Positions 19,151 to 25,991 of a DNA stretch of 64,000 bases are shown here, in pieces (position 1 is the first letter of the stretch; each line of letters starts with the position of its first letter). The notes under the pieces are model-generated. The model had not been told where the DNA came from. It ran no database searches and saw nothing but the letters and a program-made list of their open reading frames with translations. The position numbers were made by a program, and so were the translations under genes. Source of the stretch: Dokdonia sp. 4H-3-7-5 (GTDB taxonomy: Bacteria; Bacteroidota; Bacteroidia; Flavobacteriales; Flavobacteriaceae); contig NC_015496.1 in assembly GCF_000212355.1 (NCBI RefSeq), positions 496,001 through 560,000 of the forward strand. Direction: 5' to 3'.

Positions 19151-22100
19151 ATGGCAAACGAAACTCCAGATACACAACCTAAAGCATCACAGTCACTAGA
19201 CGGCGGTACTTATGAGATCATACAAGGTAGACTGCAAAAGCAGAAAATCGATCTCCAAGAACGCCTTCAAAAACTGAATGAGGAACGTAAAGATGTCTTT
19301 GGCTCTCTTGAGACAAAGCTCATTGCAAATGACCGTATCAATACAGAGAATAACTGTATTGCTCGTGACATCGTTTCTCTCAATAATCTATGCCTTTTTG
19401 GATATAATGTGCATTTTGGATTGCGCACAGACATTCACCTTAGTGATGTTTTTAGTGCCTATGAGTTCAAAGACAATCGTTTTGAGCCAAGGCCACTAAC
19501 ATTACTAGAAGATGATATTTTTCTTCTTGATTTTGCAAATTTATACAAGTACTACCGTAATACTATTTTCTCAAAGTTTGCCATCATCGGGAATTACCTT
19601 TACATGGTGTTTCAGCTAAGTGATAGTGTTACAGATATTAAAACATTTAAATGGCTTATAAGCGATGACACCTTAAAATACGTAGATAATCGTAGTGAAC
19701 ACGAATACAAGTTTCCAAAACAACATGATTTTAAATGGCTAGAAGCTACGCGCGATATGCATCGTTATGGTGTGCACGCACACGTTTCTATACTTGACAA
19801 GGTTTTTGTAGAAACCATAGGTGGTGATCTTACTATTAAAATAGAGGACAATACAGAAGAAGGAAAAGGAATCCTTGACGAACCTGTGGAGCACATCGAC
19901 CAGACACTTGATGACGGGCAATACCGTTATGCAGACCTTGGTAATTTACTGGCGCTTGAGATCAAACCTTTTCAAGAGGAAGCTCGTTATTTTGTCTATA
20001 ATCACAAACTCAAGCAAGTTCAAAAAATACAAAGTGTAAAAGATACTTGTGTATTACTTCCAGATGATCAGGGTATTATTTTCCCAACAGGTTATTACTT
20101 GCAAACAGGAGAGTATAACATCTTTGATAATGCAATCCCAAATGTAAAATTTCAAGAGAAAATCAGCTCGCCTAACGGAGAGGATTTCTTGTATGTTTTT
20201 TATTCCCCAGAGGCAGGACTTTACAACTTGATGTCATACAATGTGATTACTCAAGAAATTAAAACTCCGATTATCTGTAATGGATTTACCGTATTAAAAA
20301 ATGGCGAACTCAGCTATTTTAAAACTGAAAATGAGCAGAGCAAGCATCACGTCATACAGATCTGGCAAACCCCATTTTTAAAGGGTGATTATATGCCTTC
20401 TCAACATGAGGACACACTACTGTATAAAATAGGAAATAAAGATATCGTAAAAGCGATGGCAGAGGTTAACGGCCTTGTCACGCTACTCAACAAGGAGGAT
20501 AATTACGATGGATTATATAGTGATCTAGCCAAGTTTTCTAAAGATATTCTTGACGCCTATTACTGGCTTCCAGAGCCAGAAACGCAACAGCTTAACATAC
20601 CACTTACTGAGATAAACGGAGCTGCAAATGCAGCAATCGATGAATTTGAAAAAGTAGTCCAACTTAAGCGTAATGCTGCAAAGCAAACGCAAGAGATTCA
20701 GAAAAAGGCTGATGAGATTTTTGGCAAAATAAAAAGTACTTCTTTTAAATCTATTAATGATTTTGTGGCGTTGCTCACACAGTTACGCTCGTTGCGTGGC
20801 GAGACCATATCTCTTAATGACATACGCTATGTAGATCCCACTTTCGTGAAAACGTTAGAGGAAGAAATCGCGGTACAGACCCAAAAGATCTCAGAGAAGT
20901 GTGTACAGTTCTTACTAGACGACAAAGCTTTAAAACCTTATCATGAAGCGGTAGCTGAGAAGAAAGGCGCAATGGAAAAGATCAAGAAAGTGATCGAAGC
21001 CAAAAAGCTTGAAGAGGAAGTAAATCAGATTGCGACAGATCTTGAATTGCTTATCGATATCATATCTAATCTTGATATAGAAGACACCTCCCACTCTACT
21101 AAAATTATTGATGATATCTCGCTCATTTTTGCGACTATCAATCAGTTGAAGGCTGGGATTAAGAATAAGAAAAAATCACTAGGAAGTGCAGAGGCGCAAG
21201 CAGATTTTGCCGCTCAACTTAAGTTAATTGATCAAAGTATCATAAACTACCTAGATATTGCCACCACGCCAGAAAAGTGTGATGAGTTCCAGACTAAAAT
21301 CTCTATCCAACTAGAAGAGCTAGAAGGGAAGTTTGCAGATTGGGATGAGTTTATCACGCTTATTATTGAAAAGCGCGAGGAAGTGTACGGAGCTTTTGAA
21401 GCTCGTAAAAATGCCCTTGTAGAAAAGCGCAATAAAAAGGCGATGGCATTAAAAAATGCCGCAGAACGTATCTTAAAAGGTGTACGTAAAAAAGCCGAAA
21501 GCTTTAAAACGGCTTCGGAAATAAACGGATATTTTGCCGCAGATCTTATGATCAATAAGGTGCGCGATATCGTACAGCAACTTAAGGAGCAAGAAGATAC
21601 TGGAAAGGCAGAAGAGATCGAGACTGGACTTAAAACAGCCCGTGAAGATGCATTGCGCAAGCTCAAAGACAAACTAGATCTCTATGAAGATGGAGATACG
21701 GTGATACGACTTGGTAAGCATAAATTTGGTATAAACAAGCAACCGCTTGACCTCACTATTGTTCTCAAAGATAGCGCGCTTAACTATCACCTTACGGGAA
21801 CAGATTTTTACCAAGAACTCTCAAATGAAACGCTTCTCGCTTCTCGCCATATTTGGAATCAGGAGTTTGTTTCAGAAACTAGCGAGGTGTATCGCAGTGC
21901 CTACCTAGCTTACAAATTATTTAATAAACTAGACAAGCACACGCTACTAGAGGCTGGTGATGACGCGCTACTTGCGATAGTGCAAGAGGAAAGCCGCAAT
22001 GACTATGCAGAGGGCTATGTAAAAGGGGTACACGATGTAGATGCTTCAAAAATTTTAAAGGTACTCGTACATAAACACAACGAGCTAGGGCTACTCACCT

Positions 22101-24028
22101 ACGCACCAGAAATTAGGGCGTACGCTCAGTATTTCTGGAACAGTATTGAAGATAGCACTAAAAAAACACTAGATCAAACGATCAAGGCTTCGGGAGAGGT
22201 GTTGCAGTTTTTTCCAGATGCAAAGGAATACCAATTTATCGTTGAGACGTTAAGTGAGGAGATACACGCTTTCGCGAAAGCGGAATCCCTTTTCTCACCA
22301 GATTTGAGTCAAACTATAGCAAAGTACATTTTTGACGAATTACAAGAAGACACAGATTTTGTGCGCAGTAGCGTTGCTGTGCGATTGAAAGACGCTTTCG
22401 CGAAAGCGTTAAAACAACAACAAGCAGACCTTAAGTTTAAGAAAAGTTATGAGTCCCTCCCTAGCTTAAAAGGGAAAGTACAGCTCGTAAAACAGTGGGT
22501 GACCGCATTTGTACGCACCCAAGAAAGTCTTACCGATGTGCGCTACGTAGATGAAGTGGTGTGTTTACTACTCTTTGAAGATGAGTCGGTTTTAAAAACA
22601 AAAGCAGCTTCTCCAAATGAGAAAATCACTGGCTTAAGCGGTGATCATAGCACAATAACCGAAGGGGTCTTCAACTTTAACTACCACGACTTTACGGCAA
22701 GGCTCAACTTATTTGTAACAAAGCAAGTACCCGCATTTGAAACATTTAAGAAAGCAAAACACACGGTTACTGAAGAGTTAAAAGAAGCTTTAAAACTGGA
22801 CGAATTTAAACCAAGAGTACTTACGTCCTTTATACGTAATAAGCTGATTGACCAAGTGTATTTCCCATTGTTTGGTGATAACCTTGCAAAGCAATTAGGA
22901 ACCGTGGGCGATAATAAACGTACCGACCGTATGGGTATGTTGCTACTTATCTCGCCTCCTGGGTATGGTAAAACTACCCTGATGGAATATATAGCAAACC
23001 GTCTAGGACTCGTTTTTGTAAAAATAAATGGCCCTGCGATAGGTCACGAAGTAACCTCTGTAGATCCAGAAAGTGCCACAAATAGCGCCGCTCGTGAAGA
23101 ACTTAAAAAGCTGAACGTGGCTTTTGAAATGGGGAATAATGTGATGCTATATCTAGACGATATCCAACACTGTAATCCTGAGTTTTTACAAAAATTCATA
23201 TCGCTATCTGATGGTACACGTAAGATTGAAGGTGTATATAATGGTAAGTCGAAAACTTATGATCTGCGCAGTAAGAAATTCTGCGTGATTATGGCAGGTA
23301 ACCCATATACGGAGAGTGGAGAGAAATTCCGCATACCAGATATGCTTGCAAACAGGGCAGACATTTATAACCTGGGAGACATCATAGGCGATACGGAACA
23401 TCTGTTTAAGCTCAGTCTTATTGAGAATTCGCTCACTGCAAATCCGCTATTGCAGCAGTTGAGTAGTAGTCATTTTGAAGATGTGTATACCTTAATAGAC
23501 CGCATAGAAAATGCAACCCAGGACAGTCAGCTCAAAGGAAATCACACCGCGCAAGAAGTGGCAGATTATACAAAAGTACTAGAGAAGGTCATCACCATAC
23601 GTAACACAGTACTCAAGGTAAATGCAGAATACATACGCAGTGCTGCGCAAGAAGATGCCTATCGTACAGAGCCTTCTTTTAAGTTACAGGGATCATACCG
23701 TGATATGAATAAACTGGTAGCCAAAGTAGTTCCTATTATGAACGATACTGAGCTTGCGACCTTGCTCTTATCGCATTATGAAAGTGAGTCACAAACTCTC
23801 ACTTCAAGCGCAGAAGCCAACTTGTTAAAATATCGTGAGCTCATCAATTCGCTAGATGAAACGCAGCAACAGCGCTGGGACACGATGAAAGAAACCTTTG
23901 TAAAGAATAATAAACTCAAAGGATTTGGTAATAAGAACGAGATGGCACAAGTACTCTCTCAAATGATGGAGTTTACTGAAAACCTAGAAGGGATAAAAAA
24001 GGCGCTTGAGAAGGGGTTGGAGAAATGA
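19151..24028 (+). CDS. Giant AAA+ ATPase (annotated in relatives as DNA repair ATPase)
   Basis: 1625 residues. Residues 10-50 are coiled coil; 60-430 are beta-rich with repeated short strands, propeller-like; 500-900 are mostly helical with coiled-coil character. The C-terminal AAA+ module has Walker A PPGYGKTT (about 1269-1276), Walker B LYLDDIQ (about 1333-1339), and a sensor region with FCVIMAGNPYTESGEKFRIPDM. Homologues are called DNA repair ATPase, but I see no DNA-binding or nuclease motif, and the PspA-flotillin context argues for a membrane-associated remodelling machine. Two perfect palindrome copies (22268, 22394) both encode AFAKA. No signal peptide. Confidence 0.85.
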   Translation: MANETPDTQPKASQSLDGGTYEIIQGRLQKQKIDLQERLQKLNEERKDVFGSLETKLIANDRINTENNCIARDIVSLNNLCLFGYNVHFGLRTDIHLSDVFSAYEFKDNRFEPRPLTLLEDDIFLLDFANLYKYYRNTIFSKFAIIGNYLYMVFQLSDSVTDIKTFKWLISDDTLKYVDNRSEHEYKFPKQHDFKWLEATRDMHRYGVHAHVSILDKVFVETIGGDLTIKIEDNTEEGKGILDEPVEHIDQTLDDGQYRYADLGNLLALEIKPFQEEARYFVYNHKLKQVQKIQSVKDTCVLLPDDQGIIFPTGYYLQTGEYNIFDNAIPNVKFQEKISSPNGEDFLYVFYSPEAGLYNLMSYNVITQEIKTPIICNGFTVLKNGELSYFKTENEQSKHHVIQIWQTPFLKGDYMPSQHEDTLLYKIGNKDIVKAMAEVNGLVTLLNKEDNYDGLYSDLAKFSKDILDAYYWLPEPETQQLNIPLTEINGAANAAIDEFEKVVQLKRNAAKQTQEIQKKADEIFGKIKSTSFKSINDFVALLTQLRSLRGETISLNDIRYVDPTFVKTLEEEIAVQTQKISEKCVQFLLDDKALKPYHEAVAEKKGAMEKIKKVIEAKKLEEEVNQIATDLELLIDIISNLDIEDTSHSTKIIDDISLIFATINQLKAGIKNKKKSLGSAEAQADFAAQLKLIDQSIINYLDIATTPEKCDEFQTKISIQLEELEGKFADWDEFITLIIEKREEVYGAFEARKNALVEKRNKKAMALKNAAERILKGVRKKAESFKTASEINGYFAADLMINKVRDIVQQLKEQEDTGKAEEIETGLKTAREDALRKLKDKLDLYEDGDTVIRLGKHKFGINKQPLDLTIVLKDSALNYHLTGTDFYQELSNETLLASRHIWNQEFVSETSEVYRSAYLAYKLFNKLDKHTLLEAGDDALLAIVQEESRNDYAEGYVKGVHDVDASKILKVLVHKHNELGLLTYAPEIRAYAQYFWNSIEDSTKKTLDQTIKASGEVLQFFPDAKEYQFIVETLSEEIHAFAKAESLFSPDLSQTIAKYIFDELQEDTDFVRSSVAVRLKDAFAKALKQQQADLKFKKSYESLPSLKGKVQLVKQWVTAFVRTQESLTDVRYVDEVVCLLLFEDESVLKTKAASPNEKITGLSGDHSTITEGVFNFNYHDFTARLNLFVTKQVPAFETFKKAKHTVTEELKEALKLDEFKPRVLTSFIRNKLIDQVYFPLFGDNLAKQLGTVGDNKRTDRMGMLLLISPPGYGKTTLMEYIANRLGLVFVKINGPAIGHEVTSVDPESATNSAAREELKKLNVAFEMGNNVMLYLDDIQHCNPEFLQKFISLSDGTRKIEGVYNGKSKTYDLRSKKFCVIMAGNPYTESGEKFRIPDMLANRADIYNLGDIIGDTEHLFKLSLIENSLTANPLLQQLSSSHFEDVYTLIDRIENATQDSQLKGNHTAQEVADYTKVLEKVITIRNTVLKVNAEYIRSAAQEDAYRTEPSFKLQGSYRDMNKLVAKVVPIMNDTELATLLLSHYESESQTLTSSAEANLLKYRELINSLDETQQQRWDTMKETFVKNNKLKGFGNKNEMAQVLSQMMEFTENLEGIKKALEKGLEK
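22268..22281. repeat. GCTTTCGCGAAAGC palindrome, copy 7
   Basis: Perfect copy in the ATPase gene, read as AFAKA in a predicted helix. Confidence 0.95.
22394..22407. repeat. GCTTTCGCGAAAGC palindrome, copy 8
   Basis: Perfect copy exactly 126 bp (42 codons) after copy 7, in the same reading frame, again AFAKA. Confidence 0.95.
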
Positions 24029-24035
24029 TTTTAAA

Positions 24036-24164
24036 AACATCTCCCCTAACCCCTCTTCGAAGAGGGGAATACTCACGATACTTTTTATTTTGCTTCGCAA
24101 AATAGAAAGTCTTAAACCACAACAGTGTCCCTCTTTGAAGAGGGAGTCAGGGAGATGCCTGCAA
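24036..24164 (+). repeat. Structured intergenic repeat, copy A (MITE-like)
   Basis: About 129 bp starting 8 nt after the ATPase stop. It has imperfect terminal inverted repeats (CATCTCCCC... near 24038; ...GGGAGATG ending near 24157) and three internal hairpins: CCCCTCTTCGAAGAGGGG, a TATTTTGC/GCAAAATA stem, and CCCTCTTTGAAGAGGG. A second copy lies at 24712-24840 in the same orientation. No ORF inside. Confidence 0.88.
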
Positions 24165-24197
24165 GAATAATAAACGAATTTAATCTCTTGGAGGTAG

Positions 24198-24584
24198 TTA
24201 TTTTGAGAAGTACATATATAGAAGTAAACCTCCTATTGTATAGAGAAGCACACCAAAAAGCGAAATAATATTATAGCTCCTAATTTTCTTAATATATCCG
24301 AGCTGAGAGAAACGTTTATAGTTATCATCTTCATTAGAAAGAAAATTTACAATACCAAATGGGAAAAATAGATAGAATAACTTCAACGATAATTCTAAGG
24401 GTTCATTCATTCTTTTCTCTGCAAATGATAATTTTTGAATGAGTTTTTCATCATCAATTGTATGAGCATTAGAAAACTTCAAACGAATTTTTAATTCATC
24501 AACCGTCATTTTCTTCTTGACTAAATAATCAATTATTTGCTCAACACTTTTATCATTGAAATATGAGGTGTGTAAAGAATCCAT
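24198..24584 (-). CDS. Small membrane protein of unknown function between two repeat copies
   Basis: 128 residues; no family recognised. The first 75 residues are charged and helical (EQIIDYLVKKKMTVDELKIRL). Two membrane segments follow: LKLFYLFFPFGIVNFL at about 68-83 and ISLFGVLLYTIGGLLLYMYF at about 107-126. Its ATG is preceded at 6 nt by a TGATT pentanucleotide tandem repeat. It is the only gene between the two structured repeats and is more A+T-rich than its neighbours, so acquisition as a small cassette is possible but unproven. Confidence 0.65.
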   Translation of the reverse strand: MDSLHTSYFNDKSVEQIIDYLVKKKMTVDELKIRLKFSNAHTIDDEKLIQKLSFAEKRMNEPLELSLKLFYLFFPFGIVNFLSNEDDNYKRFSQLGYIKKIRSYNIISLFGVLLYTIGGLLLYMYFSK

Positions 24585-24590
24585 TTGAAT

Positions 24591-24619
24591 TGATTTGATT
24601 TGATTTGATTTGATTTGAT
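24591..24619. repeat. TGATT pentanucleotide tandem repeat
   Basis: Nearly six perfect copies of a 5-bp unit just upstream of the ATG at 24584. On the coding (minus) strand it reads AAATC repeats, much like the AATC repeats in the leaders of the Psp locus. Confidence 0.9.
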
Positions 24620-24711
24620 AAGTTTCAAAAATAAGATTTTTGAAGTCGTAAGTAATTCATGATAATATTACTCTTTGAATTTCACTTCGACGAATTAAGT
24701 AAGTGATAAAA

Positions 24712-24840
24712 AACGTCTCCCCCAGCCCCTCTTCGAAGAGGGGAACACTCAGAGGGCTTTGTATTTTGCTTCGCAAAATACAAAGCCTTAAATCACAACA
24801 GTGTCCCTCTTTGAAGAGGGAGTCAGGGAGATGCCTGCAA
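24712..24840 (+). repeat. Structured intergenic repeat, copy B (MITE-like)
   Basis: Same element as 24036-24164, same orientation. The last ~47 bases are identical to copy A. In the central hairpin the sequence differs but pairing is kept (GGCTTTG..CAAAGCC here), so the stem is fully paired. Confidence 0.88.
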
Positions 24841-24860: not shown

Positions 24861-24880
24861 GACAGCTCTAGCTGTCGTTT
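24861..24880 (-). terminator. Terminator after trxB
   Basis: GACAGCTCTAGCTGTC hairpin followed on the minus strand by eight T residues, 29 nt after the trxB stop. Confidence 0.85.
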
Positions 24881-24905: not shown

Positions 24906-25913
24906 TTACTGACGTGCTGCTGGAACTTCATCCACATAAGTAGAACCTACTCCTGGCTCATCTTGTGGAAGCTCGTCTTTTGACGCTAGGTATCGCTCTG
25001 CGTCTAGGGCTGCCATACATCCTGTTCCGGCAGCGGTGATTGCTTGACGGTACACGTGATCTGCTGCATCTCCAGATACAAATACTCCTGGTACGTTCGT
25101 TTTAGAAGTTCCTGGTGTATTGATAATATATCCAGTCTCATCTAACTTTAAATATTCTTTAAATATATCTGTGTTAGGCTTGTGCCCTATCGCTACAAAA
25201 AACCCTGTTGCTGGGATATCATGCTCTTCACCAGTAACATTATTTTTTACTCTTGCTCCTGTCACTCCTACATCGTCACCTAATACCTCAACAGTTTCTG
25301 TGTTGAAAAGGATTTCAATATTCTCTGTTTTCTTAACACGAGCAGCCATAATCTTAGAAGCACGGAACTCATCACGACGCACTAGCATCGTTACTTTTTT
25401 ACATAATTTAGAAAGGTAGTGTGCTTCCTCACAAGCGCTATCTCCAGCACCTACAATTACTACTTCTTGACCTCTATAAAAGAATCCATCACAAACAGCA
25501 CAGGCAGATACACCTCCACCCATTTTAAGATACTTCTGCTCAGAAGGTAATCCTAAATATTTTGCACTTGCACCTGTAGAGATGATGATTGATTCTGCAT
25601 GTATTTCCTTTTCTCCGTTGATCCAAGCTTTATGCACGTCCCCAGAAAAATCTACTTTAGTCACCCATCCGTCACGCACGTCCGTATCAAAACGTTGTGC
25701 TTGTTTCATTAACTGCACCATCATTTCTGGTCCAGTAACACCATCTACATACCCAGGGAAATTCTCTACTTCATTTGTAGTTGTAAGTTGGCCACCTGGC
25801 TGTTGCCCTTGGTATAGCACTGGTGCCATATTTGCACGTGCTGCATATATTGCTGCGGTATATCCCGCTGGTCCTGAACCTATGATAAGGCATTTTACTT
25901 TTTCTACTGACAT
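24906..25913 (-). CDS. trxB: Thioredoxin reductase
   Basis: 335 residues, slightly longer than the usual 310-320 owing to a short C-terminal tail. It reduces thioredoxin with NADPH via FAD. FAD-binding GSGPAGYTAAIYAARA is at 13-28, the redox-active CAVC at 138-141, the NADPH-binding GAGDSACEEA near 157, and the second FAD motif GVFVSGDAAD near the C-terminus. Cytoplasmic, single-gene unit with its own terminator. A perfect palindrome copy lies in its probable 5' leader, 16 nt before the ATG. Confidence 0.97.
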   Translation of the reverse strand: MSVEKVKCLIIGSGPAGYTAAIYAARANMAPVLYQGQQPGGQLTTTNEVENFPGYVDGVTGPEMMVQLMKQAQRFDTDVRDGWVTKVDFSGDVHKAWINGEKEIHAESIIISTGASAKYLGLPSEQKYLKMGGGVSACAVCDGFFYRGQEVVIVGAGDSACEEAHYLSKLCKKVTMLVRRDEFRASKIMAARVKKTENIEILFNTETVEVLGDDVGVTGARVKNNVTGEEHDIPATGFFVAIGHKPNTDIFKEYLKLDETGYIINTPGTSKTNVPGVFVSGDAADHVYRQAITAAGTGCMAALDAERYLASKDELPQDEPGVGSTYVDEVPAARQ

Positions 25914-25929
25914 ACTGTATTATTTTTAA

Positions 25930-25943
25930 GCTTTCGCGAAAGC
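25930..25943. repeat. GCTTTCGCGAAAGC palindrome, copy 9
   Basis: Perfect copy 16 nt upstream of the trxB ATG, inside the likely transcribed leader. Confidence 0.95.
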
Positions 25944-25991
25944 GTAATAAACACTTTTACAATCGCACAATTCTTATTTATATCTTCCTTG

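Follow-up and report, generated by a model that had tools for sequence, protein, structure and literature searches.

The window analyzed here is a 64,000-nucleotide stretch of the Dokdonia sp. 4H-3-7-5 genome (G000, a single 3.39-Mb contig), corresponding to G000:C1:496001-560000. It contains two copies of a structured repeat, copy A at 24033-24164 and copy B at 24709-24840, both on the plus strand and 90% identical to each other. The repeats lie in a slot whose left anchor is a DUF3686/AAA ATPase gene (19151-24028, plus strand) and whose right anchor is a minus-strand gene (24906-25913) that encodes a thioredoxin reductase by sequence and that we take to be trxB. Judged by the ATPase gene, the closest named relatives are Dokdonia (98, 96 and 90%). 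Between the copies, a 128-codon ORF is read from the minus strand (24198-24584). It contains hydrophobic stretches, as judged by reading the sequence, gave no match in Pfam, NCBIfam or PADLOC, and is taken here as a passenger. A terminator-like hairpin (24861-24876), called on both strands, adjoins trxB and is separate from the repeats; it is also present in the related genomes G001, G004, G006 and G016. A run of TTTGA units (24583-24619) directly upstream of the start of the 128-codon ORF is about 11 nt shorter in G011, possibly as a result of slippage-type length variation, and a GCTTTCGCGAAAGCG-type palindrome lies upstream of trxB at 25923-25950, a word that recurs at several loci of the genus.

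We refer to a whole repeat copy as R and to its half-unit, ACATCTCCCYNANYCCYTCTTNNAAGAGGGG, as U. Three parts follow one another in U, namely the outer arm, a spacer resembling TA(A/G) and a C/G palindrome; in R, two U units, each with its own palindrome, face each other in inverted orientation across a central hairpin. In copy A, the first U (24037-24067, plus strand) comprises the outer arm ACATCTCCCC, a TAA spacer and the palindrome CCCCTCTTCGAAGAGGGG at 24050-24067; it is followed by the central hairpin (24080-24110, plus strand; 14-nt arms, a TTC loop and one T-G pair) and the inverted U on the minus strand (24131-24158, which is G000:C1:520131-520158). Copy B has the same order, with U at 24713-24743 on the plus strand (palindrome CCCCTCTTCGAAGAGGGG at 24726-24743), a perfect central hairpin with 15-nt arms at 24755-24787 on the plus strand, and the inverted U on the minus strand at 24807-24834 (G000:C1:520807-520834). 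Both copies carry the palindromes CCCCTCTTCGAAGAGGGG and CCCTCTTTGAAGAGGG as well as the central TTTTGC..GCAAAA hairpin, and the outer arms of R, CATCTCCC and GGGAGATG, pair with each other (CGTCTCCC instead in copy B).

An earlier note, made from this sequence alone, had described two copies of approximately 129 bp in the same orientation (24036-24164 and 24712-24840), each with near-terminal inverted repeats and three hairpins. Our analysis bore this out: 116 of the 129 positions are identical, and outer arms, two palindromes and a central hairpin were found in each copy. When folded as DNA, the plus strand gave z scores of -7.5 (A) and -8.7 (B) and the minus strand -6.1 (A) and -6.6 (B), and in each case none of 200 dinucleotide shuffles folded as well. 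Two further statements of the note were also confirmed. The ORF at 24198-24584 is the only one of at least 60 codons between the copies, which thus bracket just the 128-residue gene, and the central hairpin differs between A and B by two real changes that preserve pairing, one from A-T to G-C and the other from T-G to G-C. Outside the TTTTGC/GCAAAA core, the central arms of 25 copies from the genus formed 5.28 of 8 pairs with their own partner, as compared to 4.23 of 8 with the partners of other copies. None of 2000 shuffles gave own-partner pairing as high in these 25 copies, which are related and therefore not independent. Decayed central stems at L171, L173:3107 and L176:1698 retain just 3 of 8 pairs. 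A search of the window against Rfam at gathering scores gave no match, and R had no match in collections of plasmids and phages.

The slot between the ATPase gene and trxB was compared among relatives. The ATPase gene is present in 7 of the 18 genomes of the genus, and the 128-codon ORF is absent from the slot in G001, G004, G006 and G016. In G001 a single R precedes the terminator hairpin, a 127-codon ORF lies nearer trxB, and the 128-aa gene is missing. In both G004 and G016 the ATPase gene is followed by a 328-codon ORF and then R (shortened in G004), and in G006 a U half-repeat comes first, separated from R by a 216-codon ORF and a gene of flavodoxin fold. The R-gene-R arrangement was found in G000 and in G011, whose contig ends at the second R, and no U was found in the 3.46 kb available at the slot in G014. 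These results show that the contents of the slot turn over among relatives. Because A on its left and B on its right have the same outer flanks as the single R of G001, save for approximately 45 nt extra in G001 on the right, the two states differ mainly by 'gene plus one R'. We infer that a single R beside the ATPase gene may have become R-gene-R on gain of the passenger; recombination of R with R could then remove or exchange a passenger such as the 128-aa ORF. As a local explanation, the suggestion of the earlier note that a cassette had been moved by recombination between the copies is thus supported by the differing contents in G001, G004, G016 and G006, and the comparison with relatives lacking the gene, which it had proposed, revealed a single R in G001 and other genes elsewhere, i.e. 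an arrangement that is not fixed.

The shared R-gene-R arrangement of G000 and G011 could also mean that the whole unit transposes as a composite bounded by the two R copies, all the more since the G000 ATPase gene is closer to those of G001, G004 and G016 (98-99%) than to that of G011 (96%). This explanation appears extremely unlikely. In 397 genomes of the family, G000 aside, the 128-aa gene had only weak partial matches, and the outer flanks of A and B are those predicted by recombination at a resident R. In addition, G000 and G011 are completely identical over approximately 445 nt (about 23985-24430), from the end of the ATPase gene through A into the ORF, as compared to 77-96% identity per 100 nt in the remaining ATPase stretch compared. 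Because this identical tract ends inside the gene, it points to homologous exchange, which was likely recent and at the repeat. A mobile R-gene-R composite was therefore rejected as the first choice, the gene having no good match elsewhere and the flanks fitting a resident single R.

U is dispersed in the genus. Allowing up to 3 mismatches, U sites were present in 12 of the 18 genus genomes, G000 included, at 1 to 31 per genome, and in six there were none: 31 sites were found in G006, 28 in G004, 22 in G011, 21 in G000, 7 in G003, 5 each in G001 and G008, 4 in G016, and 1 each in G007, G009, G010 and G012. A backward-pattern control gave 0-2 sites per genome (0 in G000; 2 each in G004, G006 and G011). 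Among the 397 family genomes, searched with up to 2 mismatches, matches occurred in five, namely G000, G003 and three more with one site each. In G000, U was found as inverted pairs (the window and L191), as direct arrays (L193, L194 and L190) and as a single unit (L195). Units recur at orthologous places in numbers that differ from genome to genome, and in the loci examined, U copies were mapped almost exclusively outside larger ORFs. U is thus a palindromic unit in the 20-40 nt range that is multi-copy, extragenic, and both solo and in inverted pairs, as is typical of REP and BIME sequences. Because U stands alone, in direct arrays and as inverted pairs, its organization is REP/BIME-like and goes beyond a fixed two-copy structure, and the window repeats are short non-autonomous palindromic elements of this build. 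The earlier note had proposed a MITE or REP-like non-autonomous element and a genome search for further copies; the copies found in G000 and in other genomes of the genus uphold that proposal. R resembles MITEs in its length of about 130 bp, in the near-terminal inverted repeats formed by its outer arms and in having no gene inside. In contrast to MITEs, its half-units are also found singly and in direct arrays, and the partner proposed below is not a known transposase; with respect to a target-site duplication, the comparison of the window slot with relatives offered no clean empty site for R. At L008 and L012 of G000, L286 of G004 and L295 of G011, U is interspersed with a second family of palindromes, of which CCAATTCCCACCCTTCAGGGTCGGGGAAAGGAATTGG in L008 is an example.

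The preference of U for positions outside larger ORFs and the retained pairing of the central hairpin would also fit an immobile structured element with a function in RNA or the chromosome, such as a terminator, protection of mRNA ends, or a nucleoid or gyrase site. However, presence and copy number vary among close relatives, and the ORFs on the two sides of the arrays at one orthologous place (L174, L176 and L178) are read divergently. Terminator prediction gave no call at either R, and a terminator role was therefore rejected. Overall, we consider an immobile element distinctly improbable.

The similarity to REP and BIME sequences raises the question of a partner enzyme. Like systems of REP/BIME and TnpA_REP (RAYT), U consists of short palindromic units that are solo or in inverted pairs, intergenic and present in tens of copies. 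The earlier note had named a RAYT-type transposase as a possible partner, which was not corroborated. A search of G000 for PF01797 (RAYT) found no match. PF01797 matches occur in 4 of the 18 genus genomes (G003, G012, G013 and G014), and in none of the four that are rich in U. The RAYT-like gene of G003, which we assign as subclass-2.6-like from its NHYH and YIHRNP motifs, has relatives in 61 of the 397 family genomes; the repeats at its own flanks are of ACCTCGCAGGT type, a different palindrome set. We scanned the flanks of 70 family RAYT loci, a sample and not a complete survey, from 500 nt upstream to 600 nt downstream with CCCTCTT[CT][AG]AAGAGGG, allowing up to 2 changes; U-type flanks were found at none of them. 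A repeated 11-mer is present in 43 of the 70 loci, and 24 of these 43 show a ACCTNNNAGGT word. RAYT was therefore rejected as the partner of U. As a separate observation, 16 of the RAYT matches listed (L204, L205, L207, L208, L213 and others) lie in open frames of 490-553 codons instead of approximately 190-240, and are perhaps fusions.

A RAYT could nevertheless have mobilized U as a classical REP/BIME family and since been lost from the lineage. The BIME-like architecture (solo, tandem and inverted pairs) and the presence in G003 of both a subclass-2.6-like gene and 7 U sites agree with this history, as do the CCC/GGG hairpins at some RAYT flanks (see below). In the available text of Quentin et al. 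2018 (PMC6006769), TnpA proteins of subclass 2.6 from Bacteroidetes are described as having 'atypical secondary structures' at their flanks, with further copies of these in other parts of the genome, and this subclass lacks the GT[AG]G sequence that is the canonical REP foot. In 25 aligned copies, the foot of U is ACATCTCCC(C)TAA/TGA-like and has no canonical GT[AG]G. The DUF559 loci described below are like the subclass 2.6 structures, as far as that text describes them, in belonging to the same phylum and in having multi-copy palindromes around a nuclease gene; they are unlike them in that the RAYT loci sampled carry repeats other than U. Given the absence of PF01797 from G000 and from all U-rich genomes, the ACCTCGCAGGT-type flanks in G003 and the lack of U-type palindromes in the family RAYT flanks inspected, we regard a lost RAYT as improbable. 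GTAG- and CGTC-tagged repeats, the latter reported in the available text of PMC3733652 from five phyla including Bacteroidetes, are likewise palindromic, and the foot of U differs from those described there in having neither tag.

Genes of the DUF559 family lie among U copies at 2685-2689 kb in G000 and, in both G004 and G011, at the F4-F3 place. All three proteins match DUF559 (PF04480; E 1.6e-29 reported), and that of G000, which has 119 aa (G000:C1:2686862-2687179), has a solved relative, the endonuclease-like protein 3hrl_A (E 3.4e-12). Residues E65, D67, G68 and H71 are invariant in six aligned sequences; such conserved acidic and His residues agree with a Vsr-like PD-(D/E)XK nuclease. 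DUF559 was found in 14 of the 18 genus genomes (31 matches) and in 147 of the 397 family genomes. We examined 99 DUF559 loci: all but one of the 31 genus matches, together with 69 of the listed family loci, taken mostly from the top of the list. One of the 99, L303, was mis-located but retained in the hairpin counts and, as a long branch, in the tree; 98 of the 99 loci were usable for these counts. A CCC/GGG hairpin with exact arms of at least 7 nt and a loop of up to 8 nt was present no more than 200 nt from DUF559 on at least one side at 76 of the 98 loci and on both sides at 37; 22 had none on either side. In contrast, such hairpins were found at 0 of 95 positions 900 nt away, 1 of 72 ATPase 3' flanks and 7 of 400 random pairs, and shuffled flanks gave 3.6 of 98 on either side and 0 on both. 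RAYT flanks were above these other controls, with hairpins at 9 of 69 on either side and 5 of 69 on both. Because orthologous places inflate pooled counts, the loci were grouped by their neighboring genes into 46 contexts. With one locus per context, the mean was 36.6 of 46 for either side, 20.2 of 46 for both sides and 0 of 46 for the far position.

The similarity of the flanking repeats followed that of the DUF559 proteins across the 46 contexts (Mantel r 0.525, no permutation as high); for far flanks r was 0.05, with 8.7% of permutations as high. In a pooled run of 58 loci outside LeuRS, MetH and HemD, from which 10 near-duplicate genus rows were dropped along with L303, which was excluded from all Mantel tests, far flanks gave r 0.13 with no permutation as high, a correlation that fell to the 0.05 given above on thinning. 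DUF559 and its flanking palindromes thus co-diversify, as would be predicted if the repeat were cognate to the nuclease, and the general link between the two is strong.

The specific link between DUF559 and the U type of the window is moderate. U-type palindromes bracket DUF559 in G000, G006, G009 and G011, and are present on the readable side in G010. The DUF559 proteins of these five genomes form a clade with support of 100/98, and a putative sister clade (G002 and G015) has support of 97/86, the tree program flagging a possible long-branch join. The combination CCCCTCTT..AGAGGGG within 320 nt was found at 7 of 7 loci of both clades, as compared to 1 of 92 other DUF559 loci, counted without thinning. 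Because the five U-clade loci are one orthologous place, the pairing of U with DUF559 rests on two independent places, this one and that of G002/G015. In G009 and G010, the only U match of the genome lies approximately 90 and 140 nt, respectively, from the DUF559 domain. In G000, 1 of the 21 U pattern sites is close to DUF559, though variant units missed by the pattern are also there. From these comparisons, a DUF559 protein encoded outside the window appears the likely partner of the window repeats. Repeats like those of the second palindrome family adjoin the other type of DUF559 in G004 and G011.

DUF559 blocks were also found in frame within core genes. In a gene that we take from its sequence motifs to encode LeuRS, one loop was compared in 16 of the 18 genus genomes. 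In G006, G010, G014, G015 and G017 it is filled by an in-frame palindrome-DUF559-palindrome block of 426-432 nt. At its start, this block has a spacer resembling TA(A/G) or TGAT between two C-runs, together with a CCCCC..GGGGG palindrome; DUF559 follows, and the inverted counterpart of the start closes the block. An empty 36-nt loop with no palindrome was found in G000, G001, G002, G004, G007, G008, G011 and G016, so that G006 differs in carrying the block from G000, G004 and G011, to which it is closely related. In the same loop, G003, G009 and G013 have a different in-frame insert of 57-60 nt, which (L386, L384 and L381, respectively) contains a TCGAGC(G/A)CAGTCGAGA word. The DUF559 sequences located in LeuRS (16 loci), in MetH (6) and fused with or beside HemD (8) form site-specific groups in the tree; those of MetH make up one clade, those of HemD another, and LeuRS needs two label changes. 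Such groups fit either homing or inheritance with loss. In the LeuRS and MetH elements, the longest exact inverted repeats between the flanks are only 5-20 nt; therefore, perfect long ends are not general.

Alternatively, the palindromes may pre-exist and DUF559 genes may be parasites that home into them, with the nuclease playing no part in spreading the repeats. The small share of G000 U sites near DUF559 agrees with this view, and so does the F4-F3 locus of G004 and G011, where a DUF559 of a different type, with distinct proximal repeats of its own, sits inside a U array. Against it, the LeuRS palindromes occur only together with DUF559 and are absent from the 8 empty sites, and the palindrome type tracks the DUF559 protein across the 46 contexts. 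We therefore judge this explanation unlikely.

We slightly favor instead a model in which R would be a short non-autonomous relative of DUF559 elements, and DUF559 cutting followed by repair would have spread the palindrome blocks. The full-length relatives would be the palindrome-bracketed DUF559 gene blocks. DUF559 would recognize or cut the palindrome or the target site, and repair of the break would copy the palindrome-bearing block in, a homing-like spread instead of HUH transposition. Short derivatives such as R would multiply and be reshuffled by homologous recombination between copies. Mobilization by DUF559 is what we infer from sequence comparison, and several observations count against it. 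A U-clade DUF559 is missing from G004 despite its 28 U sites, and the 3-kb loci of the three single U-like sites found beyond the genus contain no DUF559. The U-type DUF559 genes of five genomes share one orthologous place, and their join with G002/G015 may be a long-branch artefact. Some DUF559 loci have no hairpin on either side, and RAYT flanks are also enriched for these hairpins. The DUF559s of LeuRS, MetH and HemC/D are mostly site-specific, which fits old inheritance with loss too, and no R insertion with a target duplication was mapped among the loci compared. Finally, the available text of a report on Caulobacter VsrA, a DUF559 protein, describes DUF559 as Vsr-like and proposes that VsrA is a mismatch-repair endonuclease linked to cytosine methylation (PMC12907096). 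VsrA resembles the proteins described here in its DUF559 domain and PD-(D/E)XK superfamily; it differs in this proposal and in that repeats are not mentioned in the available text.

Vsr-like homing endonucleases constitute the EDxHD family. Like them, the DUF559 proteins have a Vsr-like fold, occur inside conserved genes and form site-specific groups; unlike them, they are bracketed by palindromes, lie in frame in LeuRS and MetH, and have a repeat with short derivatives. To our knowledge, bacterial palindromic REP repeats have so far been connected with a single family of enzymes, the HUH RAYTs, and a search of open-licence papers, in the text available, found nothing linking DUF559 with such repeats. 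As in REP/BIME-RAYT systems, a nuclease gene is flanked by cognate repeats. The present case differs in that the proposed partner is a PD-(D/E)XK protein (DUF559) and not a Y1 HUH enzyme, the GT[AG]G foot is lacking, and G000 has no RAYT match. REPs with a partner nuclease are already known; a Vsr-like PD-(D/E)XK partner would be new, and would define a new class if mobility were proven. On the wider proposal we are evenly divided: Flavobacteriaceae, and perhaps Bacteroidota, may harbor an undescribed class of mobile element, consisting of a DUF559 gene bracketed by lineage-specific C/G palindromes. Such an element would insert into intergenic DNA as well as, with the reading frame kept, into core genes such as that for LeuRS, and would shed short palindromic derivatives (R) as a REP-type system based on PD-(D/E)XK instead of HUH. 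If this were true, the C/G palindromes near many Flavobacteriaceae genes would be explained and DUF559 would gain a role; the in-frame insertions in LeuRS and MetH could be read as scars of mobile elements, and gene turnover at repeat-bracketed slots would become directly testable.

DUF559 genes were also observed near the DUF3686 ATPase gene itself. In 8 Aquimarina records (L103, L116, L123-L126, L130 and L137), the matched ATPase stretch has a DUF559 gene approximately 3.5-4 kb upstream, which places it close to the beginning of the ATPase gene, and in L370 (G194) one lies close upstream of a gene that begins like the ATPase.
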